From NCBI RefSeq assembly GCF_007830055.1, contig NZ_VLLE01000002.1:1189953-1253952 (forward strand): a stretch of DNA of 64,000 bases, written 5' to 3'. Below, one piece after another: positions 3,562 through 30,929 of this stretch. Source of the DNA: Lacibacter cauensis (GTDB lineage Bacteria; Bacteroidota; Bacteroidia; Chitinophagales; Chitinophagaceae). Below the pieces are notes generated by a model. That model had not been told where the DNA came from. It saw only the letters and a program-made list of their open reading frames with translations, and ran no database searches. Within the stretch, counting starts at the first letter, position 1. Each line of letters starts with the position of its first letter. Position numbers and translations under genes: made by a program.

Positions 3562-3595
3562 TACAAATGGTTATAGTTAATTGAAGTAATAGCAA

Positions 3596-4798: not shown

Positions 4799-4804
4799 TG
4801 CAGA

Positions 4805-6301
4805 TCACGAACGTTTTTGAAAAATGATTTCTTTATTTACCGATGCCGCTTTGTTGCCCCAACTGTTGCGGATGTAATTGATGAGGGAACGCATTTCTTC
4901 ATCTTTCAAAAAAGAAAATGCAGGCATGGCCGATCCGTCTTTTCCTTTTCTTCCTTTCAATAACAGATCAATGAGTTCCTGCGATGAACCGTTTACAATT
5001 GCCGAACCTTTCAGTGCAGGAAAAATACCTTGTACACCTGTGCCATCGGGTTTGTGGCAGGAAGCACAGTACTGTTTGTACAGTTCTTCGCCGTTTAATT
5101 TTGTAACAGCACCTGCAGAACTTCCTTTCAATACAGGATGTATTGCTTTTGTTGTTGCTGAAATTTTTAGAATGCGATCATCGCCTTGTTTTGGAAAACC
5201 GCTTGCCGGATTCCAGTCACGGTTACTGGTGCTGATGTACACAGCTCCATCTTTACCTGCACAGATATCACGGATGCGTCCATAACGATCAGCAAAAAAA
5301 ACTTCTTCGTTAACGATGGCAGTTCCTGCATCGTTCAACTTTAATACACGTACACTTTGTGTTTTTAATGTGCCCACTAAAAGACTGTTCTTCCATTCGG
5401 GTATGGCAGTATGTACATAGAATGTTATCCCCGATGGAGCCACAACAGGTGTCCAGGAATACAAGGGCTCAACAGTATGTTCTTTAGCTGCAAAAACATG
5501 TTCGCTTTCGAGGTTATGAAAACCTTCGATAACAGGCCAGCCATAATTTGCTCCTTTGTTAATGTGGTTGATTTCATCTTCAATCGCATCACCATGCTCA
5601 GCAGTATACAAAAGTCCTTTATCAGAATAAACCAATCCTTGCATGTTGCGGAAACCTTTCGCCCACACATAACTTTTCGGATTGGGATTATCTGCCGGAA
5701 TTGTTCCATCAAGATTGAGGCGTAAAATTTTTCCATTCAAACAGGTATCGCTCTGAGCATTGGTGATCGTGTAGGCATCGCCGGTAGCCCAGATGATTTT
5801 TTTATCAGGAGAAATGGTGAGTCGTGAACCATTGTGCGCCGTATTACCACCAATCTCTAAAACAGTTGTTGGCTCAACCAATGTATCATTTTGAAAACGG
5901 TAACGTTCCAGTCTTGAAAAGATCACACTGTCACGCATCAATGTATAATTCACAAAAACAAAAGGCTGCGTAGTAAAATCAGGATGCAGTGTTATGCCCA
6001 GCAAACCCGCTGTCCGTTTGCGCCACACATCATTAATATGCAGTAGTTGTTTTCGTTCACCCGTTGTTACATCAATGCGCCAAACAGTGCCACCCTGTTC
6101 AGTAACCCACAACTGATTATCTTCTCCATAATGCAGATCCCAGGGCACATCCATTTCTGAAGCAAGCACTTCCACTTTCAATAATGTATTTTGCAGTTGT
6201 ACATTGTCAATTATCTGCAAATCACTTTTGTTTTTACTCGTACATGCAGAAAATAAGAGCAGACTAAAAAAAAGATAAGTTCTCTTACAGGTATGTTTCA
6301 T
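4805..6301 (-). CDS. Lipoprotein PQQ-type glucose/sorbosone dehydrogenase with C-terminal cytochrome c
   Basis: This 498-residue lipoprotein has lipobox LLLFSAC with Cys20. Residues about 50-390 form a soluble glucose/sorbosone dehydrogenase propeller (PWDLHYGEDNQLWVTEQGG, NTAHNGSRLTIS, TAEHGDAIEDEIN). The last ~95 residues are a class I cytochrome c with the haem motif CASCH and a likely Met ligand in SAMPAFSF. Such fusions oxidise sugars in the periplasm and pass electrons to the respiratory chain. The chosen start (6301) is one base from the stop of the BNR gene. An upstream in-frame extension of 52 codons overlaps that gene and has no signal sequence. PQQ dependence is a family property, not seen directly. 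Confidence 0.88.
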   Translation of the reverse strand: MKHTCKRTYLFFSLLLFSACTSKNKSDLQIIDNVQLQNTLLKVEVLASEMDVPWDLHYGEDNQLWVTEQGGTVWRIDVTTGERKQLLHINDVWRKRTAGLLGITLHPDFTTQPFVFVNYTLMRDSVIFSRLERYRFQNDTLVEPTTVLEIGGNTAHNGSRLTISPDKKIIWATGDAYTITNAQSDTCLNGKILRLNLDGTIPADNPNPKSYVWAKGFRNMQGLVYSDKGLLYTAEHGDAIEDEINHINKGANYGWPVIEGFHNLESEHVFAAKEHTVEPLYSWTPVVAPSGITFYVHTAIPEWKNSLLVGTLKTQSVRVLKLNDAGTAIVNEEVFFADRYGRIRDICAGKDGAVYISTSNRDWNPASGFPKQGDDRILKISATTKAIHPVLKGSSAGAVTKLNGEELYKQYCASCHKPDGTGVQGIFPALKGSAIVNGSSQELIDLLLKGRKGKDGSAMPAFSFLKDEEMRSLINYIRNSWGNKAASVNKEIIFQKRS

Positions 6302-6302
6302 T

Positions 6303-7751
6303 TTACGGATTGATCTTGACAGGTTTTGCAAATTCAGTTTCCATCTTTTCGGGCAGTTGATATACGTTGCCTTTGCTGTCGCAGAAATACAAACGTGATA
6401 CAGATTTTGCTCTTCCGTTTCCATCGGCCCAAAACGCATAAAAATCTTTGTGTGCATTCACCGGTCTGCGTGGATAGGAATGATTGTATTGACTATTGCG
6501 TGTTAATTGTTTGCTGCTCCAGCTCCGTCCTTTATCCGTGCTTGTCCATAATACAATTTCACCGCCGGTATTGTATTGCTGTGGCCCATCGGTTGTTGGG
6601 CCGATGATCTGCCAGGTATTGCCGTTGATGTACAGCGAACCCATATCATAATTGTTATCCGATGTTGTTACTTTACGTATCTCCCAGGCTTTACCATTGT
6701 AATAAGCAGTATGCCATTCTCTCGGGCCTTTCTCAGGACCCGCTTCGTATCCCTTGCTGGTGATATAAAGAATAACCGGTCTTCCTTTTTTATCGAAGTT
6801 GACATCGTTGATGTACACATTCAATCCTTCAGCATAATAATCTTTCACCAATGCAGGATTCTGAATAGCAGAAAGCGGTAATGTCAATTGCTTTCCATCT
6901 GCACTCTGCCAGCTTTTTCCAAAATCCTTGCTATGCATGTAATAGAGATTCGAACGATAGTTCAAACCATTCTCACCATTTTTAACCGGATGAAAATTGA
7001 ACACTGTTGCAACAGTGTTTTTAAACTGACCACTTGTTTGATAATGCCCTTCTTCGATCACCGCCAGATCGATCCATGAGCTGTAAGCAACGCCATCGCT
7101 GCTGGTCATATAACTGATCGTACGGCGTGGTTTCGATGGCTGACCGGGAATGACATTACGATCGTAATGGGTAAGCAGATTGATAAAACCACGTCCTTTT
7201 TGATACCATGTTTGCAGGTAAGAAAAGTTTGTCATCGGCACAGCAACGTCCTTCTCAATTTTAGTAGGCTTAATCTCTCTGAATTCGGTTATATCGTAAG
7301 GCTTTACACTTTTATGAATATAAGATGGGCCGCTGGTGCCATGTGCCGTTGAGAATATCCAGATATAACCTTCAGCATCAATATTCAGCACAGGATTGTC
7401 ATGTGCATCATTTGTTTTTTTATCTAATACAATCGTTGGGCGAGGTACTAATCCGGTTTTATGATCGAAATAAGCAACTGCATGCAACAACGTTTTTCCT
7501 GCTTTATCTGTAGCGCCGTAACAGAAAAACGTTTTGTTCACCTTTGCTGCATACACCGAAAACGGATAATGATTTGCCGGATAGGTTGCTAATCCCCCGC
7601 CATACTTGTACACGTATGCATCGTTTGATGGCTGGTTGGCATACCAGATGCCACGGTAACCATCATCTTTTACATTGAGCGTTAAAGTTGTTTGCTGTGC
7701 AGTTGCACAAAAACAAATGCACACGGCAATAAAAAAAAGTTGACTCCTCAT
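6303..7751 (-). CDS. Secreted BNR_4-repeat propeller protein
   Basis: This 482-residue protein has signal peptide MRSQLFFIAVCICFCATAQ. It shows BNR/Asp-box-like blades (SKDFGKSWQSADG, STDKGRSWSSKQ) and the conserved opening DDGYRGIWYANQP with GGGLATYPANHYPFSVYA, as in BNR_4 proteins of polysaccharide loci. Related propellers include polysaccharide lyases and exo-acting glycan-binding enzymes, so it could be the carbohydrate-active component acting before GH88. A catalytic residue set cannot be assigned from sequence alone. It follows SusD after an intercistronic hairpin and is one base ahead of the sugar dehydrogenase gene. Confidence 0.82.
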   Translation of the reverse strand: MRSQLFFIAVCICFCATAQQTTLTLNVKDDGYRGIWYANQPSNDAYVYKYGGGLATYPANHYPFSVYAAKVNKTFFCYGATDKAGKTLLHAVAYFDHKTGLVPRPTIVLDKKTNDAHDNPVLNIDAEGYIWIFSTAHGTSGPSYIHKSVKPYDITEFREIKPTKIEKDVAVPMTNFSYLQTWYQKGRGFINLLTHYDRNVIPGQPSKPRRTISYMTSSDGVAYSSWIDLAVIEEGHYQTSGQFKNTVATVFNFHPVKNGENGLNYRSNLYYMHSKDFGKSWQSADGKQLTLPLSAIQNPALVKDYYAEGLNVYINDVNFDKKGRPVILYITSKGYEAGPEKGPREWHTAYYNGKAWEIRKVTTSDNNYDMGSLYINGNTWQIIGPTTDGPQQYNTGGEIVLWTSTDKGRSWSSKQLTRNSQYNHSYPRRPVNAHKDFYAFWADGNGRAKSVSRLYFCDSKGNVYQLPEKMETEFAKPVKINP

Positions 7752-7821
7752 TACGAATGCTGAATTTGAAAATACAGGGCAATAGTTTTTCTGTTATGCG
7801 TTTTGCACAGCATAAACAGTT

Positions 7822-7857
7822 ACAGGATACACCGGGGGAATTACTCCCCCGGCCTCC
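7822..7857 (-). other. Intercistronic stem-loop between susD and the BNR gene
   Basis: A perfect 8-bp GC-rich stem (arms 7832-7839 and 7845-7852, CCGGGGGA/TCCCCCGG) has a 5-base loop and is extended by AGGA/TCCT flanks. No T-run follows on the minus strand, so it is better read as an mRNA-stabilising or attenuating element than as a full terminator. It would let SusC/SusD be made in excess over the downstream enzymes. Confidence 0.6.
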
Positions 7858-7880
7858 TGTTGTATAAAAAAGATTCGCTC

Positions 7881-9344
7881 TTAGTAACCGGAATTCTGTT
7901 TGATCAATGCCGGGTTGATATCGATTTGACTTTGTGGAATAGGAAACAACACATGATGCGCCTGCATACCTGATGTTCCAAGTACAGCCAATGCACGGTT
8001 TGTGCGTACGAGATCGAACCAACGATGACCTTCAAACGCCAGTTCTACTCTGCGCTCCTGTTCAACAGCTAAACGGAATGCAGCCTGATCAGCCACCTGT
8101 AATGCGGCATTGGCATTGCTGCTTGTTTTCGATGCAAGACCAGCTCTTGTTCTTACCTGGTTGAGATAAGTAAAAGCGGGACCATCTGCTACATAACCCT
8201 GTTCGTTCAAGGCTTCAGCATACATCAGCAACACATCAGCATAACGCAGTACGATCCAGTTGTTATCGCTGTCCAGATATGCAGCGGGCACACCTGCATA
8301 CTTGATGATATAATTATGGTTGACTGTATTTCCGTTCAACACATAGCTGTTACGCATAGACGCTGCTTTGCGCAAATCGCCTAATTCATACGCATTGCTC
8401 ATGTTGGCGGTTGGAATATTTTGTCCCAATGGATTGCCAACACTTACAACTGCTGTACCCGAACCGATTGGTGCAAACTGGTTGGTAAAAGGACTTCCTT
8501 CACCAGTTGCTCCTTTGCGGAACTGCACTTCAAAAATCGATTCACGGTTATTTTCATTTGCTGCACCAAAAATGTTGGCGTACGAAGTAACCAACTGGTA
8601 CTTAGTTTGAGCTGCTGCATCAATTACTTCCTTCAGCTTTTGTGCTGCAAGTGCCCAGTTTTGTTGTGTAAGGTATACTTTGCCCAACAACGACATCGCT
8701 GCGCCTTTTGTTGCACGACCGATATCGGCACTTGCATATTCAAACGGCAGATTCTGTTCTGCATCTTTCAGATCGGCAATGATCTGCTCGTACACTTTTG
8801 CAGTTGTTTCACGACCATACTTATAACCTTCCTGCGGATTATTGATGATATCGGTTACGAGGGGTACATCACCAAAAATGCGTACGAGGTTAAAATACAT
8901 CAACGCTCTTAAAAAACGGGCTTCAGCTTTGTAACGGACTTTCAATGTTGCATCCATGTTTACCGCATCAATTTTATTGATGACGATATTGGCCGATTGA
9001 ATACCTTGGTAATGCCCGTTCCATGTTGTACTGCTGATCGATGTAACCGCATTGTTGGTAAACATATCTACGGCCTGCATATCGGCACCTGCTGCCGGAT
9101 CGGTAATCTCTGTATTATCCGAACGCAGATCGCCAATGATGTGCATGGAGGAATAATACATACCGCCGTACTGCAATGCACTGTAAACAGATGACAATGC
9201 ATTTTTCATATCCTCACCTGTACGGTAAAAATTATTGCTGTTTTGCTGCGAGATGGGAGCAAGATCAAGAAAGTCTTTCTTGCAACTGCTGCCGGTTAAA
9301 AGTGCAACAGTGCAAATGGTAATTAATTTATGACTGGTCTTCAT
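7881..9344 (-). CDS. SusD/RagB-family outer-membrane glycan-binding lipoprotein
   Basis: This 487-residue lipoprotein (Cys21 in LTGSSCKKDFLDLAP) has the SusD hallmarks: an N-terminal SusD-like region, TPR-type helices (KAEARFLRALMYFNLVRIFGDVPLV near residue 140) and the C-terminal RWFDLVRTNRAL...LFPIPQSQIDINP signature. It forms the lid of the SusCD import complex and binds the oligosaccharide at the cell surface. It lies 86 bases after its SusC partner in the usual order. The family is certain; the glycan is not visible, although the neighbouring GH88 points to a uronate-containing polymer. Confidence 0.95.
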   Translation of the reverse strand: MKTSHKLITICTVALLTGSSCKKDFLDLAPISQQNSNNFYRTGEDMKNALSSVYSALQYGGMYYSSMHIIGDLRSDNTEITDPAAGADMQAVDMFTNNAVTSISSTTWNGHYQGIQSANIVINKIDAVNMDATLKVRYKAEARFLRALMYFNLVRIFGDVPLVTDIINNPQEGYKYGRETTAKVYEQIIADLKDAEQNLPFEYASADIGRATKGAAMSLLGKVYLTQQNWALAAQKLKEVIDAAAQTKYQLVTSYANIFGAANENNRESIFEVQFRKGATGEGSPFTNQFAPIGSGTAVVSVGNPLGQNIPTANMSNAYELGDLRKAASMRNSYVLNGNTVNHNYIIKYAGVPAAYLDSDNNWIVLRYADVLLMYAEALNEQGYVADGPAFTYLNQVRTRAGLASKTSSNANAALQVADQAAFRLAVEQERRVELAFEGHRWFDLVRTNRALAVLGTSGMQAHHVLFPIPQSQIDINPALIKQNSGY

Positions 9345-9430
9345 GTCGTTAATGTTTTGTTTTTAATACAGTTTTTCTTTCCTTCTATCACTGTTCTGTT
9401 ACTGCTGTATCATGCAATGAATCTTATGAA

Positions 9431-12400
9431 TTAGAAACCAATATTGATACCGAGGTTAAAACTTCTGGCAAGCGGGTAACCACCTGCATCTGTACCGGGT
9501 ACCAACGGACTTCCGCCCTGTGCACTTACTTCGGGATTATAACCTTCGTACTTCGTGAATGTGTAGGCATTCTGTACCGTAAAGCTTACACGTGCAGAGC
9601 TTAAGCGAAGTGTACGCAACGCCTGCTGCGATAAATTGTAACCCAGTGTGATATTACGGATGCGGAGGAACGAACCATCTTCTACAAAGGTTGAAATGAT
9701 GTTGTTCACAGCATTACTTCCTGCATATGCATTAAAGTTGCGGTCGATCATGGGTGTTACACCATCACCGGGATTTGCTTCCGACTGCCAGCCGTTCGCA
9801 GTACTGCGCAGCACATTGTATGTACCGGTATAGTTACCGTAATAACGACGTGCAAGATTGAGTACTTCTACCCCTTGTACACCCTGTAAGGTAAATGCAA
9901 AGTCAAAGTTGTTGTAATTAAACGTGTTGGTAATACCATAGGTAAAATCGGGGAACGCATTACCAAGAATCGTACGGTCATCTGTTGTAATTCTTCCATC
10001 GTTGTTGACGTCACGGAATTTCAATTGTCCCGGACGAGACTGCACTGTTCCGTTAGCATTGTAAAAGGCCGGACCTTTCGCAACATCAGCATCGTTCTGG
10101 AAAACACCAATTACCTGGTATCCAAAAAACGAACCCGGAGCAGCTCCGATTTGCGTAATGTGCGTAGGCGCACTTGCCGATGTTGCCTGGCGTGCGATAA
10201 TGGGCGAACCATCAGGACCTAATGCAGCTACTTTAATTTGATTGGTTGAAAAGTTCAGGTCGGTTGTCCATCTGAACTTACCAACTGTATTTCGGGTGAT
10301 GAGGGTAAACTCAACACCTCTGTTTTCAATTGCACCAATATTTTGTAACGCAGTTGAATAACCGGTAAGCGTTGGCACCGGTACATTCAACAACAGATCG
10401 GATGTACGCTTGTTATAATAATCAGCAATAAAAGTCAGACGGTTGTTAAATGCTGCTAATTCTAAACCGGCATCAATTTGTCTGTTCTTTTCCCAACCTA
10501 ATTCGCTGTTCGGAATATTGTTTAAGCGAATACCGTTACTTACCGAGCCACCGCTGTTACCAAACACATAGTTATCGGCAGTGGTCAAACCAATATGGCC
10601 GTAGTTGGCAATAAAATTATTACCGGTAAGACCATAGCTGGCACGCAGTTTCAGATCGCTGATCCAGCTGACATTCTTTAAAAAGTTTTCTTCGCTTAAA
10701 CGCCATCCGAGTGAGAAGGAAGGGAAGAAACCCCAACGGTTATCAGCACCAAAGCGGGATGAACCATCCTGGCGGAAAGCAGCCGTAACAAGATATTTAT
10801 CATCGTAACTGTAGTTAACCCTTGCGAGGTAAGAAAGCAACGACCATTCTTCTTTCGTTGAAGTTGCACTGGTTATTAAACCGGCTGCATTCATAGTACG
10901 GATGATGTCGTTCGGAAAGTTGGTTCCATTTACGGCATTGTTATCGATGTACTCTTTTTGAATGGTATAACCTAATAAACCCTGTACTTTATGACGGTTG
11001 AATGAGCGGTTATAGTTCAATGTAAACTCCGACAACCAGTTTTTACTTTCAAATGTATTGCTGCTGCCTGTTGGAATTTTGGTAGCATTTACACTGTTCG
11101 GATTTACAATGGAAGGGCTGAATACATCCTGTCTGTTATTACGAATATCGGTACCTACCAACGCTTTAAATGTAAATTGTTTGGCAATACTGATTTCAGC
11201 AAAAGCAGTTCCCAGTAAACGTAAACTACCCAGTTTGTTCATCCCTTCTTTGGCAAGTTTTACCGGGTTATCTACTTCGCTCAAACCAATGCCCTGCCCG
11301 GTTACTTTTGTATAATTACCATTTGCATCATAAGGTTTCAGATGCGGTGCAGCTGTAATGGCCGACTGAATGATTGCACCACCCTGCCAGTTGCCTTCTG
11401 CCGTTACAAGATTGGTGAAGGTGTAGGCAGGCATCAGGTTGGCACCCACTTTTACATTATCACGCAACTTTGATTCAACATTAATACGGAAGGAATAACG
11501 TTTGAGATCAGAATTTAAAATGATGCCCTGCTGATTGAGATAACCTGCAGAAATAAAATAGTTGGTCTTCTCATTTCCTCCGGAAATATTTAACTGGTAG
11601 TTCTGTGTAAATGCCGGACGGAAAATTTCTTTTTGCCAGTTGGTACCCTCGCCCAACGAATCGGGATTGCTGAGGGCTGCAGGCAATACATACATTACAT
11701 TGTTCTGGCGAACAGAGTTTGGATCTGTTGCCAAACGGCCGGGTGCTGAATTTACCCATGCATTATTTCTTGACTGATTGATGTAGTTGGCAAATTCTCT
11801 TGCATTCAATACATCAATTAATTTTTCAACAGTCTGCACACCGGTAGTAACCGTAAAGTTCATACGGGTAACACCACTCTTGCCCGATTTTGTTGTGATG
11901 ATCACTACACCATTAGAACCACGTGAACCATAGATGGCAGTAGCCGATGCATCTTTCAACACCTGGATACTTTCAATATCAGCAGGGTTGATTGTATTCA
12001 AAGGATTGTTACGTTGATCATAATCATTCGTTACAGGAAACCCATCAATTACATATAATGGCTCGTTACCTGCACTCAACGAACCTGCACCTCTGATGCG
12101 CACTGCTGCACCACCACCGGGCGCACCTGTTGTTTGCGTTACCTGCACGCCGGCCATTTGAGCAGCCATTGCCTGGTCAACACTTACTACGGGTTGATCT
12201 TTTAATTTTTGTGCACCAATTGAACTGATCGATCCGGTAACATCTTTTTTCAACTGTGTACCATAACCAACTACCACAATGCTGTTAAGGCTTTGTGTGG
12301 CTACACGCATACGAATGGTTACGGTTGTTTTACCTGCAACACTTACTTCCTGCTCTTCGTAACCGGTGTAGCTTACAATTAAAACAGCATTCGCCGGCAA

Positions 12401-20300: not shown

Positions 20301-20630
20301 ATAACAAACCGCATTTTGTTGGAGCAGAGAGAAGGCCTTGTTCGTAGCAAGCGGCCCCGCTGTTACCTGTTGCTGCAACTTGTTATAGACCGCTTTATTT
20401 TTTTGAGGAACAAGTTGGGCACCGGCAAATTGTTGTTCGAAATTTTTTAATCGGCCGTTTCTTGTTGCTGTATGGATGGTATGCAACGAATCAAGCGTAC
20501 GGGCATTGACCGTGATGTTTTGAGCCGATGTAGCCGAAGGCATGTTGGAATGACCTGTTTGTTGCGCATACACCCATGTATGCAGTGTAATACAGGTAAG
20601 CAGTAAAAACAGAAATCGAAGTACGACCAT
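17316..20630 (-). CDS. Large secreted Ig-repeat protein with T9SS type B (CHU_C) sorting domain
   Basis: This 1104-residue protein has signal peptide MVVLRFLFLLLTCITLHTWVYAQ. The first half has propeller-like repeats (ADGSILLAGRTKN, LDTNGNLIWLKTYEAR). Roughly residues 600-1010 hold five or so Ig/PKD-like repeats of ~85 residues, each with LGADT.xC, LxAxxGFxxYxW and PGxYxVxV. The last ~90 residues are the gliding-motility-type domain (YVPNAFTPNNDQLNDVVYP; FNRWGKLLF; GWNGTAAG). This domain directs export by the type IX system and retention at or release from the surface. It looks like an adhesin or surface sensor. It is probably a single gene, as the flanks are non-coding. Confidence 0.92.
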   Translation of the reverse strand: MVVLRFLFLLLTCITLHTWVYAQQTGHSNMPSATSAQNITVNARTLDSLHTIHTATRNGRLKNFEQQFAGAQLVPQKNKAVYNKLQQQVTAGPLATNKAFSLLQQNAVCYTISGRNFLKQDSLVLYTNDACKTRDGNVLVTGEFGEYTPYLVESGAYCMKTDIEGNVLWAKLYDSVEVGGSDYTYYTRVIELADGSILLAGRTKNRISGNDDFVLTKLDTNGNLIWLKTYEARLWQGFNGSGDSFPLTDLEEDPANGAIYFTGGLWGGISCVTKVSSSDGSVYWSNGYDGFDSEQPFGIVINSDHLLLFDLVNGYYNQSYVQVTALNKTNGDTLFSKSISQTGDVSLARLYRGTQVVKLNNGHYRLCGSTTRYFQFPAFTGTIDLFHAGVIDLDANLNFVKAWGFKNRLEANGYNTKISLFPDGSGLFTMLDYVSSYNAETIICLFKDDQIYHQRKRIHANEGIPYEPASLQLADGGFLNIKLMGDSTKTGAQGSRIDYYRIHTSDTASLCIGLKDSSTSVYYFNFEPANRRINSVLPNMFRESRVKQFEQWNFSLHPDPACVVVSNCDTLVLRSTATTICPGNAITITIGKNKACGSLIPLEYDSSFVSGVTQLTDSTYRFHFNKPGKGFIRASLMGCVLRKDSVFIEVLPAVYSLNLGADTVICPDNQIVLHARSGFASYQWQDGSTDSTFTVRNPGKFYVTAINGCGTVYSDTILVNNHPPIPLNVGADRTKCNTDTLRLTAPAGFINYNWSPAYGLSATTTQTVIANPMVDTSYVLKAELKPGCFAFDTVRVSVFRSPVIHLGADTSFCKGDSLQLHAGAGFVKYQWSTGGNAQTQTVYAAGNYSVAAVTNQGCTSYDTLRILNVFTNPVVSLDQQEAICTGSSKLLDAGSFTSYLWNDGSTARTFTVNQPGVYAVMVKDNNGCLGRDTTRITTLLPLPAQFLPADTSICTYDQLTLKPTQGFRSYLWSNNSTNNTLTIAAPGLYWLTVTDQNNCVGQDSVLVSPKECLTGIYVPNAFTPNNDQLNDVVYPIIGGNVIQYRFSIFNRWGKLLFTTTERGKGWNGTAAGYPQDPGLFTWTCTYQLEGGQPQTAKGFVMLMR

Positions 20631-21180
20631 AGCAGTTAAAAAAGAAACAGGTAAACGGAGTTATACCCATCTTGGTATTTCTAAAGATAACCATTGAAAG
20701 ATGGTTAAAGCAGACAGCGTTGAACTTATTCATAATCGTGTTAATTGCAGGGATAACTGTGGAAAGATTGTTGCCGAATTAGAATATAAGTCACCGGCCT
20801 TTTTTACGCAACTCCGGTTAAACAGGGCATTCGACTATTAATCAACCTGATAAAACAAGGATGCACAGAACACTACAAATGATGAGACGACAGTTGTGTA
20901 AAAATAAAATCAGGGTTCAAGCCGCCAACTTAGGAAGTCCATTAGCAGTAGCCTTTCAGGTTACTTTCGGGGCACACAAAAAGTGACAAGAAAAAATAGT
21001 CGCTTCATTAATCTACGTCAATCTATTGATCAATGCAGACACTTTTACCAATGTGCAGGATCGTATAAAAGGAGGTTCCGGAATGCAGTTATTACCTTAT
21101 ACTGCGGCTATGCAAACAAGGAGAAAACAGTTTGTTGAGGATCTTACATAACTGTTTTGTAAATACCACTGCTGGCAAAA
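20631..21180. other. Non-coding stretch with a possible gene remnant
   Basis: No convincing gene is seen. On the plus strand an open frame without a start codon, about 20988-21151, ends in ...QLLPYTAAMQTRRKQFVEDL and a stop; its protein-like end suggests a decayed gene fragment, but the source was not recognised. The remainder upstream of the large surface-protein gene would hold its promoter; no perfect -7 element was found there. Confidence 0.25.
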
Positions 21181-21213
21181 TAAAAAAGCCACTCAAAATA
21201 TGAGTGGCTTTTT
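21181..21213 (-). terminator. Intrinsic terminator of the HNH/ATPase operon
   Basis: The arms AAAAAGCCACTCA and TGAGTGGCTTTTT enclose a five-base AAATA loop and are flanked by A- and T-runs on both sides, so it can work in both directions. It lies about 200 bases past the stop of the HNH gene on the minus strand and next to the tRNA-like 3' end, the normal place for a tRNA terminator. Confidence 0.75.
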
Positions 21214-21230
21214 GCGGACCGGACGGGACT
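21214..21230 (-). other. tRNA 3'-end remnant / candidate attachment site
   Basis: The 17-mer GCGGACCGGACGGGACT on the plus strand reads, on the minus strand, as the T-loop to acceptor end of a Bacteroidota tRNA. The rest of the tRNA is missing: the upstream bases (21231-21240) instead form a 9-bp hairpin with it. A terminator follows directly, as for a real tRNA. This is the usual trace of integration into a tRNA 3' end. tRNA identity is not certain. Confidence 0.4.
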
Positions 21231-21417
21231 TTCCCATCCGCCCTTTATCACTTAAAACACAATATTTTATCCGTGTTCTTTTATCTTGCTAACCGAATTG
21301 CTCCCTTTGGCTACAATTCATTAACCATTGATTACAAATAGCAAAGATGCCTTATAAAATTACCAATTTTGAAAACAGTTTGCAAAGGAATAGCACAATT
21401 TATTTATAGCAAGAAAA

Positions 21418-22239
21418 TTAAGTTATATTATTCTTGGCAAGAAACTTCTTTACAAAAAAACGACTCATCCCGGCGTATGGCTTTTCTTTCTCAGTAAATG
21501 AAAGCAAAATCTTTAATTCATCTTCAAATACTTTTTTTTGACCTGCACTGTTGTCATTATTGAACCGTACAAGTTCTCGAATTACCCGGTCCATTTGCTG
21601 ATACAATAATAACAGCTGCTTTTTCCGCTCTTGTACTAACAAGTGCCTTTGTAATACAAACACTTCTATTGACTTTTTCCCTTTATTAGTAAGTGGAATG
21701 ACTACAGCTTCTTTGTCTTCGTATTCAAGTTCTTTTGATGGGTCATCAACACACGGATTGATCAACAATCTAACCTTCTCCTCTTTACTTAGCCTATGAG
21801 TATGTTTAAGCAACCGCTTTGATTCGTCGGCTACTGGGAACTGATCTAGCTTCCCGTAACTGGTTAGAGTGGTTTCACCATACAGAATATGTTTCCGTCG
21901 TTGATTACAATGCATACATGCCAGGAATAAATTACCCCAATCATTTGCCAACCAATAGTAACCTGGTGTTTGAGGGTTCTTTTCATTCACTTTTCCTTTG
22001 GGTCGAAAATGCTCAACATCTCCATCTGAAACATGGCCATAAATGCTCTCACAGTAAGCACATTTTACAAACACCTTCTTCAATTCATCCTTAAGTCTTG
22101 CATCGTTGTACATCTCAAACTCAAATGACTCCGAACTTCCACTTTTATAATGCGCAATGGCTTCTTTAGTCTCTTTTACCCACTTCCCGGAGGGATCATT
22201 TAGAAACGTAGGTGCTGGTGGTCGATTTATATGAATCAT
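21418..22239 (-). CDS. HNH endonuclease, TIGR02646/PtuB type
   Basis: This 273-residue protein starts MIHINRPPAP, typical of the retron/Septu-associated HNH family TIGR02646. It has a zinc pair CAYC (60-63), the HNH strand DVEHFRPK with the general-base His77, the signature YYWLANDWGNLFLACMHCNQRRKH (Asn103, Cys108, Cys111, Asn112, His117) and a helical C-terminal half. Such proteins are the nuclease effectors of Septu-like systems, activated by a partner ATPase. The gene overlaps the ATPase gene by four bases (ATGA) and is followed by a terminator. The nuclease motif appears complete. Confidence 0.88.
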   Translation of the reverse strand: MIHINRPPAPTFLNDPSGKWVKETKEAIAHYKSGSSESFEFEMYNDARLKDELKKVFVKCAYCESIYGHVSDGDVEHFRPKGKVNEKNPQTPGYYWLANDWGNLFLACMHCNQRRKHILYGETTLTSYGKLDQFPVADESKRLLKHTHRLSKEEKVRLLINPCVDDPSKELEYEDKEAVVIPLTNKGKKSIEVFVLQRHLLVQERKKQLLLLYQQMDRVIRELVRFNNDNSAGQKKVFEDELKILLSFTEKEKPYAGMSRFFVKKFLAKNNIT

Positions 22240-24407
22240 AACCAGTCCAAATTTTGTGATTTTACGATATTGCTTACTTCTTCAATGGTTTCTTTTTTCA
22301 ATACTTCCTGTGCTTTGAAACCATCATCTCGTATTTTTTGAGCAATTGTTTGATCAATAACTTTAAATAAGACTTGCTCCCTAGGTGTATTGCCCAGCAT
22401 TTCCTTTTCAGACAGCTTTGTTGATAGCTCATTTATTTTGTCAATGTCCGCTTGAGACTTATCCTCTTCTTTTTTACTTAACAATCGGTAATATTCCTCA
22501 TAAGTCTTTTCAACTTCTTCATCAACTATATTGATCAGACCGAACAAATCTGATGTCAGAAGCTGTTCAATGCGCATAAGATTGTGGTCAGGTAACAATT
22601 GATCATCTAGTGCTTTAATGGTATTTTTTTGATCACGAACAAGTACTATCACTTCTCCATGCGATAACCCTCTCAAACAAAGAGGTTCATGTGTTGTTAC
22701 AATAAATTGTAGTTTAGGGAAAGCCCTGCGAAGTGCACCTGCTATTTTCATACGCCACCTTGGATGCAAGTGATTTCCAATCTCATCAATCAAGACAATT
22801 CCCTGAGAGTTGTGATAACTTGCCATATCTAGTGAAAGTGTTGACATTATATCTGCAACCAATGCTGTTATTGTCTTGTAGCCGTCACTGTTATCTTCTA
22901 AATCATGATCTTCTCCGAATTGCTGTATATTAATTTTTCCATTTTTCAACCAAATCTTATCATCACCTCTTAGTGCCAATACATCAAAAAAAGCAGGTGC
23001 AACTCGCTCCTTAAATTCATGAGAACTAAGACTGTTTAGCCAATTCTCTGGATTGTTCAATGAAACACTATAATCAAACAAATTCCTTACATTCTGATAA
23101 GGCTCTTTGTTACTGTCAGGTTGTATCCCACCTTTCGGCAGTAATCGTGTAGAACCATATGCTAGAATAAATGTGGGAGCTTCTTTAAGTTTTGATATGA
23201 AGCCATTTTTATCAAATTCTAAAACAATTGGCTCGTCATGTTCATAGCTATTGATTATAACTTTTCCATTCTCCTTGCCCCGTCTAAGAATATCAACAAC
23301 ATCCAAATTCAGTTTAGCTAACTGCTCTTGTGTAGTTAATGCTAAAGCTACTGCTTGTAAAATTGAGCTTTTCCCAATACCGTTATCGCCTAATAATAAT
23401 AGCCAAGATTCACGATTGCTATCTTCTTCTAATGGTTTAACGTTTAGTCTTAAATGCTCGATTGACTTGAAGTTTTCTATCTCAATTGATTTTATAGAAA
23501 ACCTTTTCAGCGATGTGAGTTCTGATGTAACAGCTTTAATTTGCTTTTTATTAAAATCATTAGTTATCTCGGTTCCAACTAGATTTGGCAAATTAACTTT
23601 ACTGTTAGCTTTATTTACCCTTGCTAAGCTTTGCCAAACTTTACCATTATTTCTAAACCACTTTTCAAACACCATCCTTTGAATTGCCACATGTTCTGTT
23701 TTTGGCCTTTCAGAATAAAGATCCCCAATTTCTTTTACCAATCTTTTTCCCAATGCACTACTAAAGCTCATTAAAGAAGACAACTTGTTTAGTCTGGTTC
23801 GTAAATTGGCTACAACCGTTTTCCGTTTGCTTATTAGCTCCCGTCTATTTAATCCTAAAATCTCAATTGTGACTTTGCCTTTTTTTGTAATCTCTTTTGC
23901 CCTTCCATTTTCTTCAAATAAAATATGCTCTTTGGGTTCATCAATACATGGATTAATTAACAATGGATTTTCTGCTAACAAACCCTGACCCTTTGTACCT
24001 ATCGCACAGCGCAAATTTTCATGTTCAAGAGGAAAATAATCTCTTTTATATTTTTGGCTGCACACTTGGCATGCCAAAAAAAGATTATCCCATTCATAAG
24101 CTAACCACCAATAATGACTGGGTGCATATTCTTTGGAATTCAACCCTCTTGATCCGGTTTTGGGTCGAAAATTGTCTATTTCGGCTATATTATTAATCCC
24201 AATACCCACTTCACAGTAAGCACACTTCCGTTGAAACATCTTGTTCAGATCAGCCTTAATTGGATTCAATATCCCTAACTCAAAACGCATCCTTTCAATT
24301 TGATCGCTTTTCTGAAAGTTCTCCTCAAGCTTTTTTTTTGCATTCCTGATTCGATCAGATTTAAGATAGGCAGGGGATGCTGTCCTTTTTATTTTAATCA
24401 TTTGCAA
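22236..24407 (-). CDS. AAA/ABC-type ATPase with N-terminal degenerate HNH domain (PtuA-like)
   Basis: This protein has 723 residues. Residues 1-130 resemble the HNH partner (CAYC 62-65; EIDNFRPK 76-83; WDNLFLACQVCSQKYK), but the catalytic His is Asn79 and the usual CN is CS, so this copy is probably inactive. From residue 300 onward it is an SMC/ABC-like ATPase: IENFKSIEHLRL, Walker A GDNGIGKS (340-347), signature-like SDGYKT (507-512), Walker B IVLIDEIGNHLHP (537-549) and switch TTHEP (571-575). It matches the PtuA/OLD-less ATPases that gate HNH effectors. It starts 12 bases after the amidohydrolase stop and overlaps the downstream HNH gene, so the three form one operon. Confidence 0.87.
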   Translation of the reverse strand: MQMIKIKRTASPAYLKSDRIRNAKKKLEENFQKSDQIERMRFELGILNPIKADLNKMFQRKCAYCEVGIGINNIAEIDNFRPKTGSRGLNSKEYAPSHYWWLAYEWDNLFLACQVCSQKYKRDYFPLEHENLRCAIGTKGQGLLAENPLLINPCIDEPKEHILFEENGRAKEITKKGKVTIEILGLNRRELISKRKTVVANLRTRLNKLSSLMSFSSALGKRLVKEIGDLYSERPKTEHVAIQRMVFEKWFRNNGKVWQSLARVNKANSKVNLPNLVGTEITNDFNKKQIKAVTSELTSLKRFSIKSIEIENFKSIEHLRLNVKPLEEDSNRESWLLLLGDNGIGKSSILQAVALALTTQEQLAKLNLDVVDILRRGKENGKVIINSYEHDEPIVLEFDKNGFISKLKEAPTFILAYGSTRLLPKGGIQPDSNKEPYQNVRNLFDYSVSLNNPENWLNSLSSHEFKERVAPAFFDVLALRGDDKIWLKNGKINIQQFGEDHDLEDNSDGYKTITALVADIMSTLSLDMASYHNSQGIVLIDEIGNHLHPRWRMKIAGALRRAFPKLQFIVTTHEPLCLRGLSHGEVIVLVRDQKNTIKALDDQLLPDHNLMRIEQLLTSDLFGLINIVDEEVEKTYEEYYRLLSKKEEDKSQADIDKINELSTKLSEKEMLGNTPREQVLFKVIDQTIAQKIRDDGFKAQEVLKKETIEEVSNIVKSQNLDWL

Positions 24408-24419
24408 AAAGTTTAAATA

Positions 24420-26186
24420 TTAAATTTTCACAGCACCGTGTAATCTGCTGTACAAAAACTCTCTTGGATTTACTCTCGCAATCTGGTCAAACTCTTCTTC
24501 AGTTAAATCATCAACCATATCAGCCAGCATATTCTTCTCAGATTTATGATTGCGGACAACATAAAAGTCTGTACCAAAAAGTACACGCTTTCGCAAAATG
24601 CCATTCATTAACGTTTGCTTTAATAAAGGCTGTATTTCTTTACTATGAATTATATAACTAAGATCTGCATAAACATTAGGATATTGTAACATAATACTGC
24701 AGATTATCGAATACCAATCAACGTACTTCCAGATGTGTTCTATCTTTCCGGGTTTGGAGTCTCCTTTTTCATCTGTTAAAAAAGTGATTCCCTTTGTTGG
24801 ATTTCGAACCAGTTGAGCAGCATAGTTTTCCCTGTCAAATTCAAAAAATCGATTCCACTCATCGTCTCCACCAAAGTGCCCGAAACACAATTTAAGGTGG
24901 CTGAGATTATACCTGAGTGGAGTATGATCGTTTATATAACCGTAAAGATCTTTAACGCTTTGAGAAGTGGCCTTACCTACCAACTTTCGCAGCAATTGTT
25001 CTTCCAGTAAACACAAATAATTTAATGGGTGGGTGAAATTATTACAGTATTCTTGATTCTCGATTTCTAGCAATCTTAAGCTTACATAATCTCCATTTCC
25101 ATTTGCTTGCTTAAATACTGGATGTTCATCCCATTCTTTTTTCTTTACTCCTCTATAGAAAATAGTTCCTCTTATACAATGTGTCAGAATTGGCAACCCG
25201 TTGTCAGCTGCATACTTCCAAAGTGGTAATAACGATTCGTCAAACGGATAATAACCTAAAGCAGGATAAATTTTAAACCCATTAAACTTTGAATCTTCAA
25301 TATATTCTTTAATAAAACAATCAGTTAGTGTAACCTTGCCATCTTTGAATGTATAATCAAAATGAGATTTTCCCTCAGCCACTATACGCCTTGGTTCTGC
25401 AAATACAAAAGGGAAAAAAAGATCCTTATTGTCCTCTTTTCCCTTTATTTGTTTAAGCTCCTCCATTTGTTGCCGGTAAACACTTTTACTATTTAAATCA
25501 CCCGCATCCATAAACTCCATATCCATCGGTAGAACTACAAAACCAGTTCCTTCAGGATATTGGCTTTTCAATCTTCTAAATACGTCTCCTTGTTTATCAT
25601 AAAATGCAAATCGCCCAATATTTAAATATCGACCAGCAAGTTCTTTTGTTTTAGACCCGGGCAGTATACCTAAAAAAGACCATGTTTTTTTAAGAATAAA
25701 AAAGAACATGTTCCTGCCTGACTGAAAAAAAAGTAAAAAGAACAGAATTAGTAATATTTTCCATCCATTTGCAGTAGGCATCCAAAGCAAGTGCTTTCTT
25801 TTCATCCAATCTCGTACAATAGACGATTGTTCGTGTATAGTCTTTTTTGGGTCTCCAACCGAAGCCAGCCAATCATTAACATAAAAGATAGAATGTATAA
25901 GTAGCCAGGCTCCAGCCATAAATGCTAAGGTTCCTAATATTTTATAACGTCGTGTTACAATTTTTATGTTATAAAAAAAATCTCTTGTTCGCTTATACCA
26001 AGGTTTAAATTGTAAGGTGTAAGGGTTTCTATACCACCACCTGAATATCTTTACAAGCTTTGAGACAGAAAAAAGATAGAAAAATGGCCATGGCACAAAT
26101 GTTTTTGCAAGCCATGGCGGAACATGATCACCTGTAAAAATGTGAGTGTGGCAGTTAATAATCGATGGTTTTGGCTGGTTGTCCAT
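24420..26186 (-). CDS. Membrane-anchored amidohydrolase-family protein
   Basis: This 588-residue protein has amidohydrolase-superfamily metal and catalytic residues: HxH at 13-15 (NCHTHIF), Lys305 in GFKIYPALGYYPFD, His336 in LPILTHCIRG, His437 in CFGHFGGDDEW and Asp540 in VLFGTDFYVVRNH. Unusually, about 170 residues inserted after the first motif carry two clear hydrophobic helices (about 81-103 and 143-165) and a possible third near 31-48. It should therefore sit in the inner membrane with a TIM-barrel active site. It is the first gene of the ATPase/HNH operon. Hydrolysis of a small molecule or signal is possible; the substrate is not known. Confidence 0.8.
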   Translation of the reverse strand: MDNQPKPSIINCHTHIFTGDHVPPWLAKTFVPWPFFYLFSVSKLVKIFRWWYRNPYTLQFKPWYKRTRDFFYNIKIVTRRYKILGTLAFMAGAWLLIHSIFYVNDWLASVGDPKKTIHEQSSIVRDWMKRKHLLWMPTANGWKILLILFFLLFFQSGRNMFFFILKKTWSFLGILPGSKTKELAGRYLNIGRFAFYDKQGDVFRRLKSQYPEGTGFVVLPMDMEFMDAGDLNSKSVYRQQMEELKQIKGKEDNKDLFFPFVFAEPRRIVAEGKSHFDYTFKDGKVTLTDCFIKEYIEDSKFNGFKIYPALGYYPFDESLLPLWKYAADNGLPILTHCIRGTIFYRGVKKKEWDEHPVFKQANGNGDYVSLRLLEIENQEYCNNFTHPLNYLCLLEEQLLRKLVGKATSQSVKDLYGYINDHTPLRYNLSHLKLCFGHFGGDDEWNRFFEFDRENYAAQLVRNPTKGITFLTDEKGDSKPGKIEHIWKYVDWYSIICSIMLQYPNVYADLSYIIHSKEIQPLLKQTLMNGILRKRVLFGTDFYVVRNHKSEKNMLADMVDDLTEEEFDQIARVNPREFLYSRLHGAVKI

Positions 26187-26447
26187 ATTAGCTTTAAGTG
26201 AATTTTGATTATTGCTCCTTTCTATAACCTGTAACTTAATTTAGGTACCAAAGGAGAAAGGAGATAAATAGCATTCAAAAGGTAAAAGACAAATAAGGAA
26301 TTAATAAAGAGTTCTAATAAGCTAGGAAATACACACTTGGCACTAAAATAATATATGAAAGGGATAGTTACAAATTTCTAGCATACTACTTTGTGGGTAT
26401 CTTCAAGCAAATGGTAACAATTACCTTCACAATTTCGAAATAACAGT

Positions 26448-26714
26448 TTATTTCCCCTCCATCCTCTGCACTTTCACCACACCCGGTAATAAATGCAACA
26501 GCGAATTAATGGCATCATTTCGCAATTTATCAACCTGGCAGTTGGCGATGATCATGGCGGTGCCATCCTGGTACCGGTGCAGATTAAAATCGTTTAGTAG
26601 CACATTGTTATCTTGGAAGAACATAGCCAGTCTTCGCAATGTATCCGTTGGGTTTTCGATCTGCAAGACAAAGACACAGTTCGTTCTTACAAGTTCAACT
26701 TTTAAATAACTCAT
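26448..26714 (-). CDS. Small ACT-like domain protein
   Basis: This 88-residue protein has the pattern of an ACT/ferredoxin-like fold: an alternating beta-strand start (YLKVELVRTNCVFVLQIEN), a helix (PTDTLRRLAMFFQDN), then VLLNDFNLHRYQDGTAMIIANCQVD and a final helix ending in GVVKVQRMEG. ACT domains bind small ligands such as amino acids or act as dimerisation modules. It lies 64 bases after the RteC-domain gene on the same strand and may be co-transcribed. A binding partner or ligand cannot be named. Confidence 0.6.
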   Translation of the reverse strand: MSYLKVELVRTNCVFVLQIENPTDTLRRLAMFFQDNNVLLNDFNLHRYQDGTAMIIANCQVDKLRNDAINSLLHLLPGVVKVQRMEGK

Positions 26715-26778
26715 AGCGGTCCTTATTTACACTGGCAGCAATACTTTAGTTGAAAAATATTTGTGAAGGCATTCGGTA

Positions 26779-27333
26779 TTAGCACTCTGTTGCCATGATT
26801 GTCCGTAAGTAATCTTCAAACTTTTCCAGTGCAAGGTATTTGCCCATCAAAGCATCAAACAAACTGCTGTCCCTGCTATTGTTATGACGGGTAAACCATT
26901 CAGCGTCGGCATAAGTATTTCGTTCTTGCACATATTCATAGAAAACCGGGTTTTCTTTCTTTAACTTCTCTTTTCGTTGCAATTGCCTTTTGTAAAAATT
27001 TCTCAGTTCGTTCTTATCAGCTTCAAGTTCTACTGTTTTAAACAGGATGATATGATAGCAATACGTGTAAAATTCTACCTCAGCATGAAACAGTGGTTTA
27101 ATTTGTTTGAAAAAAAGGATCTCATCTTCTACACGTTCAAATGTATGATTACGTACAGCAGCAATCATTTTCTCTTTATATAACCCGGCAATTTCAAAAC
27201 AAGCCTGCACAAGTTCATCCTCCTGCACATTCTTATTTTTGCAGTTCTTTATTTCCCTGTGCATTTCTTCATAAAGGTCAATACAGTTCCTTAAAAAGAC
27301 ACCTTGTTCAGTTTTCGCCGGAATCTGGAGCAT
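26779..27333 (-). CDS. RteC-domain protein
   Basis: This 184-residue protein matches the N-terminal part of RteC regulators of Bacteroidota conjugative elements: LFFKQIKPLFHAEVEFYTYCYHI, a charged stretch, then NPVFYEYVQERNTYADAEWFTRH. In CTnDOT, RteC activates excision genes. The C-terminal HTH-like half typical of full RteC is absent here, while a protein with a similar C-terminal half starts at 39781, so this may be a standalone domain or an element remnant. It is mostly helical and highly charged, with no signal peptide. Confidence 0.65.
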   Translation of the reverse strand: MLQIPAKTEQGVFLRNCIDLYEEMHREIKNCKNKNVQEDELVQACFEIAGLYKEKMIAAVRNHTFERVEDEILFFKQIKPLFHAEVEFYTYCYHIILFKTVELEADKNELRNFYKRQLQRKEKLKKENPVFYEYVQERNTYADAEWFTRHNNSRDSSLFDALMGKYLALEKFEDYLRTIMATEC

Positions 27334-27877
27334 ATAAATGATTTATAGTGTAACAAATGGTTATTGCTGACTAGTTTCCTTTCAAAGAAAAAGGGCTGCT
27401 GACACTTGCGCAAACAGCCAGCCTCTATTGATTATGAATAATATTTTTTTAAAAGTCGGAGTCCTGTAGAAACAGCACTCCATTGATTTATGACTAAACC
27501 AACATGAGAAATCGTTTTGTTCCATTTTATAAAACGAGGAGGCAGTAGAAACAACCTCCGCCTCATTCCTAAACAATGAGCATGAGAAAAATTCTTTTAT
27601 AATAAAGAACTGGTTAGTTCCTGAATCTTATTTATTCCATCAATCAATCCTGAGCGAACCTGTCCCGTTTAAAAGGAGTCGAAGGGTAAAAAAGGCAGCT
27701 TCACATATTGTCAGACGTTCTTGATCCACTGCCTCTTTATTCAAAACTTTACTTTTAGGAGCGAATTAAAATAAGCCCCGGAGGATATTGAAATCGTTAT
27801 GGTTTATAAATAAACAAATTGTTGAATACACAAAACTTAGAGTAAGAAACTCACTTAAATAATAATCAAAAAACTCG
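27334..27877. other. Non-coding region with tandem hairpins and one palindromic mini-repeat
   Basis: No gene is supported. It holds three successive stem-loops (27394-27419, 27458-27481, 27538-27559); the last two share the layout GGAGN...AGAA...NCTCC. It also holds one CCTGAGCG...AGTCGAAGGG repeat at 27648-27686. It separates the stop of the DsbD operon from the RteC-domain gene on the same strand, so the hairpins could end or attenuate transcription. Confidence 0.5.
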
Positions 27878-30473: not shown

Positions 30474-30851
30474 TCAACGATATTCAAATTCGAATGTTAA
30501 TGAGCCTGTATATTCTTCAGCGCCGTAAGTATTAGTAGAAATCAAAATATTATTTGTCATCTTAAGCCACTTTGTAGGCGGGGGTGTTGGTGGTGCAGGC
30601 CAGTACAAAGAAACACCCAACATATTACGAAAAGCAATTGCACAACTCCTTCCGTAGTTGGTAGCTATGGTACTGCTCATACCTGTTAGATAATTTCCTT
30701 GATCAGTTGACAAATTAAAGTTGTCAGATACCCAGGTTTTAAATCCGCTTTCGATCGCTGATGCCTCAGCCATCCTGTCAACGGTTGTCATTGCATAAAT
30801 CTCTGCAATCTTGTCTTCTACTCCGTCAGCTGTGAGTGGTTGTTTTGCCAT
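30474..30851 (-). CDS. Uncharacterised 125-residue protein in the SusCD/TlpA/DsbD operon
   Basis: The start MAKQPLTADGVEDKIAEIYA was preferred to an ATG 15 codons upstream. No signal peptide or membrane helix is seen. The first ~95 residues look helical (VDRMAEASAIESGFKTWVSDN; YLTGMSSTIATNYGRSCAIAF). The rest holds a proline-rich WPAPPTPPPTKW turn and a strand-rich end (GSLTFEFEYR). It has one Cys (in GRSCAIAF). Its place between TlpA and DsbD genes suggests it is a substrate or partner of the redox pathway, for example a small exported or modified protein. The family was not recognised. Confidence 0.6.
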   Translation of the reverse strand: MAKQPLTADGVEDKIAEIYAMTTVDRMAEASAIESGFKTWVSDNFNLSTDQGNYLTGMSSTIATNYGRSCAIAFRNMLGVSLYWPAPPTPPPTKWLKMTNNILISTNTYGAEEYTGSLTFEFEYR

Positions 30852-30929
30852 TTTTAGTGGTTGATATGTTATATTTCCTTTGCTATGTTTTCTCAATTGT
30901 TTAGAATTTGACCCCTGAACAGTTAGCCA

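Follow-up and report, generated by a model that had tools for sequence, protein, structure and literature searches.

In the available text of two papers, PtuAB, the ATPase and HNH nuclease pair of Septu, is described as causing loss of tRNA-Tyr by a cut in the variable loop, both for E. coli Septu and for retron-Eco7 (PMC13096335, PMC11555353). Immunity was lost in E. coli PtuB mutants of H75 and N91, according to the same portion of PMC13096335. An excerpt of a third paper equates the PtuAB of type I-A (Ec78) retrons with the Septu type II of PADLOC (PMC8565338). For the canu caspase-nuclease systems, the part of PMC12799240 available to us describes a three-gene architecture, and its Klebsiella version gives E. 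coli protection against T4; the main text of that article does not contain the word amidohydrolase. Among the titles and abstract openings listed in searches of the open-licence PMC literature, we found no amidohydrolase paired with Septu or with defence. Here we describe a locus of Lacibacter cauensis in which a gene for a predicted membrane enzyme of this type stands directly before a PtuAB pair.

The Septu pair and its fused HNH domain

The window, by which we mean the whole 64,000-nt stretch of L. cauensis DNA that was analysed, carries the three open reading frames listed in Table 1. By ORF reading all of them lie on the minus strand, and the compact layout given in the initial annotation was confirmed: the hydrolase and ATPase genes are 12 bases apart, and the ATPase and HNH genes overlap by 4 bases. 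The ATPase frame begins with TTG, and an ATG lies two codons in, at 24401. This ATG is the likelier start because homologues begin with M-I/R; the gap then becomes 18 bases. A terminator had also been placed after the last gene, but the case for it is weak. One candidate hairpin is found there, 205 bases past the ptuB stop, and the number of terminator-like sites at 20500-27000 (3, against 3.8 expected in shuffles) is at chance level. Foreign base composition was discarded as an argument, as a G+C content of 35-38% in the operon against 39% in the window tells little. Same-genus synteny gave nothing; relatives share only about 47-52% identity with the DsbD neighbour.

Table 1. Positions of the genes and predicted features of the operon (numbering of the window)
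Feature	Position	Strand	Details
Amidohydrolase (PF04909), membrane-hairpin, ACMSD-like TIM barrel	24420-26186	-	588 aa; Pfam, Foldseek, invariant residues
HxH motif (H13, H15), first barrel strand	26142-26150	-	predicted strand 10-14
First predicted membrane stretch, residues 83-101, after HxH strand	25884-25940	-	hydropathy 1.85; helix 82-110
Second predicted membrane stretch, residues 144-162	25701-25757	-	hydropathy 1.79; helices 140-153, 155-168
PtuA-like ATPase with N-terminal HNH-like domain (HNH.PtuA)	22236-24407	-	723 aa from TTG; PDLC00292
HNH-like domain fused to PtuA, about residues 1-216	23760-24407	-	catalytic His replaced by Asn, N79, bases 24171-24173
PtuB-like HNH nuclease, His and Asn kept	21418-22239	-	273 aa; PDLC00319, 1.8e-80
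Possible intrinsic terminator, 13-pair hairpin	21213-21183	-	205 bases past ptuB stop

The ATPase matched the PADLOC PtuA model PDLC00292 at 1.2e-200 over residues 3-718, nearly its full length, and the HNH protein matched the PADLOC PtuB model PDLC00319. AAA domains were detected in the ATPase with Pfam, and both a Walker A motif (GDNGIGKS) and a Walker B motif were present in the alignment. By sequence it also matched, in the Walker B region, solved PtuA chains of Septu (8ee4) and of the retrons Ec78 and Ec83. For the HNH protein no solved-chain relative was returned by sequence search, and the Pfam HNH model scored 15.3, below its cut-off of 21.4. A PtuA ATPase with Walker A and B is thus directly followed by a PtuB with the catalytic His and Asn, and the PtuA/PtuB logic read from the DNA at the outset is borne out by the PADLOC models, the kept motifs and the solved PtuA matches. 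Judged by its sequence, the core of the locus is a recognisable two-gene Septu system.

A type I-A (Ec78) retron was considered as well. The NCBIfam Ec78 equivalogs scored far below their cut-offs (122.2 against 500 for PtuA and 49.9 against 150 for PtuB). Pfam found no reverse transcriptase domain in the 12 flanking ORFs between 13088 and 37147, a scan that leaves out small ORFs and 30474-30896. No Rfam match reached the gathering score at 20600-27400; to our knowledge, many retron RNAs have no Rfam model. Because of the low NCBIfam scores and the lack of a reverse transcriptase domain and of an Rfam match in these regions, we rejected the retron and regard the pair as Septu-like.

The ATPase had been described as carrying an HNH-like domain of its own. 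The similarity of this domain to HNH/PtuB was confirmed, but the fusion is not new, since three PADLOC PtuA models (PDLC00292, 288 and 291, of 726, 733 and 773 positions) already contain it and match the ATPase nearly end to end. We compared the fused domains and the partner nucleases of ten fused PtuA proteins (the window, L033, L060, L061, L062 and the plasmid matches H1, H2, H3, H4 and H6). In the alignment the His of the E-H-(F/Y/W) motif, which from the HNH motif we take to be the equivalent of E. coli PtuB H75, was kept in all ten partner PtuB proteins and lost in six of the ten fused domains, where Asn (window), Thr, Leu, Arg, Gln and Gln were found instead. Both CxxC pairs were present in 10/10 fused domains. 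The fused HNH is probably a worn-out nuclease copy, and we infer that in most lineages it serves for docking or as a scaffold; the His is retained in four lineages, which may cut. Fused PtuA with a partner HNH was also found on plasmids of Priestia, Rhizobium, Klebsiella, Janthinobacterium and Gluconobacter.

The membrane hydrolase

The opening gene had been taken for a membrane amidohydrolase. This agrees with a score of 39.3 bits against Amidohydro_2 (PF04909; gathering cut-off 26.4) in Pfam and with the two hydrophobic stretches of Table 1; both helices lie above the hydropathy cut in 22 of the 25 family members. An AlphaFold2 model made from 21 sequences had a mean pLDDT of 81 and a pTM of 0.78, with lower confidence in the insert. 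In this model the HxH strand is followed by an insert of about 160 residues, which holds the two hydrophobic helices, and then by the remaining barrel. Foldseek returned 14 PDB matches at E <= 0.001, of which the best were ACMSD and dihydroxybenzoate decarboxylase, with identities of 10-14% and TM-scores of at most 0.57 among the 50 structural matches listed. A sequence profile search found no PDB relative.

Nine residues (N11, H13, H15, K305, H336, H386, H437, D508 and D540) are invariant in 25/25 family members; the hydrolase alignment takes in 21 of the 25. The predicted metal-ligand pattern is present in all 25, with the HxH on strand 1, further His and a late Asp. We take H13, H15, H336, H437 and D540 to be the metal ligands of Amidohydro_2, their roles being putative. 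Because the putative active-site residues are invariant, the hydrolase is probably active, and we infer one type of substrate whatever its neighbours. A membrane hairpin leaves both of its ends on the same side. Positive charges precede the first helix, suggesting that the barrel is probably on the cytosolic side. The dN/dS of the hydrolase was about 0.08 for L035/L036 and about 0.09 for L049/L050, which indicates that it is under selection without recognised partners.

Full-length hydrolase relatives (E <= 1e-50) were found in at least 9 of 396 genomes of the order and at least 5 of 395 of the class, with the own genome counted, and in 5 of 148 genomes of the Cyclobacterium lianum family at the same threshold, with the centre genome counted. 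Fused PtuA was found in at least 2/396 order and at least 3/395 phylum genomes (E <= 1e-50, own genome included). The samples overlap, and the order, class and phylum counts are lower bounds, since for most rows the scoring took in no more than two or three candidates of each genome. Both the hydrolase and fused PtuA are sporadic. A phage- or plasmid-borne hydrolase was rejected, as no match was found in plasmids or phages; a scan of viral contigs, with peptide patterns that reach close relatives only, gave no relative of the hydrolase or the ATPase.

Neighbours of the hydrolase and of fused PtuA

The neighbourhood survey used 25 hydrolase loci, namely the window and 24 others (L031-L042, L047-L055 and L087-L089); 20 weak matches with E > 1e-22 were left out. 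Loci retrieved twice were counted once. These were L003 and L040, L005 and L034, and L006 and L041 (identity inferred from matching identity and length); L004 and L055, L008/L030 and L049, L009 and L050, L002 and L047, L043-L046 and L051-L054, L082 and L031, L084-L086 and L087-L089, and L083 and L052 (same contig number and coordinates).

The hydrolase had been proposed as part of a defined three-gene Septu-like system, and this was not supported. By tblastn, the other full-length loci (n=24) comprised one with an intact PtuAB, one with a decayed HNH remnant and 22 with neither. An obligate three-gene system was rejected on this count, the hydrolase being mostly apart from the pair, an outcome that the proposal itself had named as speaking against it. 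Intact same-strand linkage of hydrolase and PtuAB was seen in the window only, among the 25 loci. In L033, the hydrolase is tail to tail with ptuB on the opposite strand, and a peptidase-M19-like gene leads the ptuAB operon. In L031, from C. lianum, HNH-like pieces lie downstream of the hydrolase at 11939-12098 (E 6e-7 among 21 loci); the remnant has the fused-type Asn and, in our reading of its start, follows the hydrolase stop by 14 bases. L031 also has a 30% relative of the M19-type hydrolase, about 2.6 kb away from its amidohydrolase. We rejected the idea that the operon is usually led by an M19-type hydrolase, since this gene precedes PtuAB only in L033 and its two matches on plasmids are in other surroundings.

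We then took fused PtuA as the starting point. The 14 other fused-PtuA loci were the set used for the His count, without the window, plus H5 and H7-H10, which were called by annotation and tblastn with the fused domain not re-aligned; the neighbour survey covers 10 of 17 plasmid records. A hydrolase relative was found in one of the 14 (tblastn, E 0.1), which is again L033. Other fused pairs adjoin a reverse transcriptase gene or a DNA methylase-HerA-NurA set. On a Rhizobium etli plasmid (L064), fused PtuA is preceded, at 848 bases and in the same orientation, by a gene for a 538-aa PF04909 protein (68.8 bits). This protein starts with HxH and shares short motifs with the window's hydrolase, to which it is only remotely similar (pairwise E 0.001), and no membrane stretch was found in it.

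Conflict-type genes were found beside the hydrolase in 10/25 loci, with the window and the remnant counted. Among the 22 loci with neither pair nor remnant there were seven, with caspase and MBL (2), another MBL unit (3), CHAT-nSTAND (1) or a large ATPase (1). L036 and L087 have a caspase C14, a middle gene and an MBL, to which L087 adds a TPR-CHAT protein; the L036 MBL matches PADLOC LmuA (4e-83), RTasMBL and Avs1a. In L037 a CHAT-nSTAND1 gene directly precedes the hydrolase, and a related MBL is found 7.8 kb away. A two-gene unit of an unnamed protein and a second MBL is present in L040, L041 and L054, the L041 MBL matching PADLOC LmuA weakly (1e-14). In L053 the gene for an AAA_16 ATPase overlaps the hydrolase start. 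Of the conflict-type neighbours that were run against PADLOC, the caspase and the two MBLs matched and nSTAND1 matched weakly (2.2e-6); no match was obtained for the CHAT, AAA_16, 644-aa, 862-aa, 495-aa and 1232-aa proteins.

No recognised conflict neighbour was present in 15/25 loci, three of which (L039, L047 and L055) are on contigs of less than 10 kb. Pfam scans of at least one neighbour in 14 of the 15 (not L039) gave mostly housekeeping domains, and PADLOC gave no match for one neighbour from each of ten. The hydrolase may therefore serve a routine function in the cell.

A search of 119 order genomes gave the second MBL in 3, and in none of these did the 13-20 kb around it contain a hydrolase; by contrast, 3 of the 24 hydrolases have this MBL within 2 kb. 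The first MBL gave 0/119, in a search without a positive control that shows little. Beside the hydrolase the MBL frequencies are far above even placement, an expectation that takes no account of the clustering of defence genes and has no background for all defence genes. Likewise, the 10/25 loci beside conflict-type genes, whose partner families are rare, are a count with no genome-wide background for defence genes.

In an AU test on the hydrolase tree, a single clade was rejected for the Septu (p 0.020), canu-like (8e-6) and MBL-unit (9e-4) groups of rows, with groups set from the neighbours after the tree had been seen, several weak inner branches and L041 as a long branch. Because one clade is rejected for each neighbour type, the associations of the hydrolase with its neighbours probably arose more than once. 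The Aquimarina loci L035 and L036 are collinear on both sides of the hydrolase, and their hydrolases are 92% identical; about 4 kb with the caspase, middle gene and MBL lie directly before the hydrolase in L036 and are missing in L035. The hydrolases of L049 and L050 are near CobN and ferritin-like genes, and no defence neighbour was seen there.

Possible role of the hydrolase and comparison with known systems

Our preferred reading, to which we give somewhat better than even chances, is a Septu pair with an optional, recurrently recruited metal enzyme that carries a membrane hairpin and probably faces the cytosol. The hydrolase appears to be an add-on because its relatives usually stand alone or beside other immune modules. 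The front gene would encode a membrane-anchored, metal-dependent hydrolase or decarboxylase of the ACMSD type, with the two-helix hairpin inserted after the HxH strand and the barrel most likely in the cytosol, and Bacteroidota would have repeatedly placed this accessory beside nuclease-bearing conflict modules. As a guess, the enzyme may work at the membrane as an auxiliary effector or a modulator, with a small metabolite of the cytosol as its substrate. The PtuA-type ATPase would gate the active HNH nuclease PtuB, with the degenerate HNH copy on PtuA probably serving for docking or as a scaffold. On infection PtuB would cut nucleic acid and stop growth, as is known for PtuAB elsewhere.

There is a lesser but appreciable chance that the hydrolase is an ordinary metabolic enzyme of Bacteroidota, sporadically transferred into variable, defence-rich regions, and that its co-transcription with Septu is incidental. 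The 15 loci without a recognised conflict neighbour and the absence of PADLOC matches among ten of their neighbours are consistent with this, as are the scanned neighbours themselves (among them nitroreductase, CobN, ferritin-like, TonB plug, Cys/Met metabolism, GH113, SRAP, response regulator and bile-acid-hydrolase-like) and the purifying selection in L049/L050. It accounts less well for the second MBL at 3/24 loci against 3/119 order genomes and for fused PtuA, intact or as a remnant, at 2/24 although it is rare, two comparisons that assume even placement and ignore defence-island clustering. The short gaps, of 12 or 18 bases in the window and 14 in L031 if the remnant's start is read correctly, also argue against a mere passenger. 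We regard it as improbable that the three genes form an obligate Septu variant of three components, with the amidohydrolase making or destroying a signal for PtuAB. The close spacing of the same-strand genes in the window would suit such a variant, and so would the recurrence of the adjacency as a decayed remnant in C. lianum, given the rarity of fused PtuA, and the distant soluble PF04909 relative before fused PtuA in R. etli. However, 22 of the 24 other hydrolase loci are without pair and remnant, 13 of the 14 other fused-PtuA loci are without a close hydrolase relative, the 14th having it on the opposite strand, and the ATPase-HNH pair alone matches two-gene Septu models.

The preferred reading of an optional accessory has a wider form, which we consider rather doubtful. 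In it, nuclease-based immune systems that are otherwise unrelated (Septu, canu-like caspase-MBL, CHAT-nSTAND and a two-gene MBL unit not described before) would share the membrane ACMSD-type metal enzyme as an interchangeable part, taken up on several separate occasions, and distant soluble relatives would have been taken up likewise in other phyla (Rhizobium). The enzyme would supply a common chemical step, in which a metabolite of infection is, for example, made, removed or sensed. Should the hydrolase prove to be a true accessory, a membrane enzyme of metabolic type would serve in several unrelated immune systems, and its substrate would indicate a new small-molecule step of bacterial immunity; should it be a passenger, what is left is a known Septu pair. 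The degenerate HNH on PtuA suggests a way for Septu ATPases to hold and control the nuclease.

Compared with Septu, the locus has the same two proteins, adjacent and in the same order, with their motifs kept; it differs in the N-terminal HNH-like domain of its PtuA, which PDLC00288/291/292 cover, and in the membrane hydrolase gene that precedes ptuA. With the PtuAB of type I-A (Ec78) retrons it shares a homologous effector pair, and on Priestia and Rhizobium plasmids a reverse transcriptase gene is found no more than 2.1 kb away from fused-PtuA relatives, whereas the window has neither a reverse transcriptase in the 12 flanking ORFs nor an Rfam match at 20600-27400. The ptuXYZ system is likewise a three-gene operon around a PtuA-like ATPase, but in the available text of PMC11980606 the ATPase is accompanied by a DUF262 protein and a PIN-YoeB toxin, and that text does not mention an amidohydrolase. 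A trio of caspase, middle gene and MBL that resembles the three-gene architecture of canu (PMC12799240) is found beside two hydrolase relatives (L036 and L087) but is absent from the window. Finally, the hydrolase has the fold family and the HxH motif of Amidohydro_2 enzymes such as ACMSD, dihydroxybenzoate decarboxylase and LigJ, and differs from them by its predicted membrane hairpin after the first strand.

Genes beside the hydrolase

Just upstream of the hydrolase, the membrane-hairpin PF04909 enzyme preceding PtuA-PtuB in the window, we observed two genes, one of 88 aa and one with an RteC domain (38.8 bits against a cut-off of 25.3); RteC is involved in the control of conjugative transposons. 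Among loci of hydrolase relatives, a canu-like trio (caspase, middle gene X and MBL) showed clean presence/absence between two close Aquimarina relatives, and this variable site directly adjoins the hydrolase.

Two such loci encode peptidase-M19-like proteins, which share 30% identity; in L033 this gene is the first of the PtuAB operon. A relative on a Hymenobacter plasmid adjoins an S8 peptidase and cell-wall amidases.

A two-gene unit, in which a 640-690 aa protein is followed by an MBL-fold protein, recurs at L041, L090, L091 and L092, both with and without the hydrolase. The first protein (L041 copy tested) had no Pfam match, and the MBL-fold protein weakly resembles the PADLOC defence models LmuA and Avs1a.

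Other settings of the fused HNH.PtuA

The fused HNH.PtuA (a PtuA-type ATPase with an N-terminal HNH-like domain) was also found in a five-gene operon shared by two related genomes. The domain tests cover L061 alone, where the NurA-like protein scored 20.9 bits, just below the cut-off of 21; L062 has an identical layout and similar starts. On a Rhizobium etli plasmid, a soluble PF04909 amidohydrolase lies 848 bases ahead of the fused gene on the same strand, has HxH at its start and shares short motifs with the window's enzyme. On two further plasmids a reverse transcriptase gene lies nearby on the opposite strand, that of Priestia megaterium being of the retron St85 type.

Positions of the neighbouring features
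Locus	Positions	Feature
Window	26448-27333	88-aa and RteC-domain genes
L035/L036	around 9.9-10.0 kb	presence/absence site of canu-like trio
L033	14745-16379	peptidase-M19-like
L031 (Cyclobacterium lianum)	5777-7363	peptidase-M19-like
L041	11838-15185	two-gene MBL unit
L061	5519-12988	DNA methylase, HerA/DUF87-like, NurA-like, fused HNH.PtuA, PtuB
L062	5130-12599	same operon
L064 (Rhizobium etli plasmid)	3380-8130	soluble PF04909 amidohydrolase, fused HNH.PtuA
L063 (Priestia megaterium plasmid)	6001-10154	fused HNH.PtuA, partner gene; reverse transcriptase
L095 (Rhizobium leguminosarum plasmid)	3756-8595	fused HNH.PtuA, partner gene; reverse transcriptase
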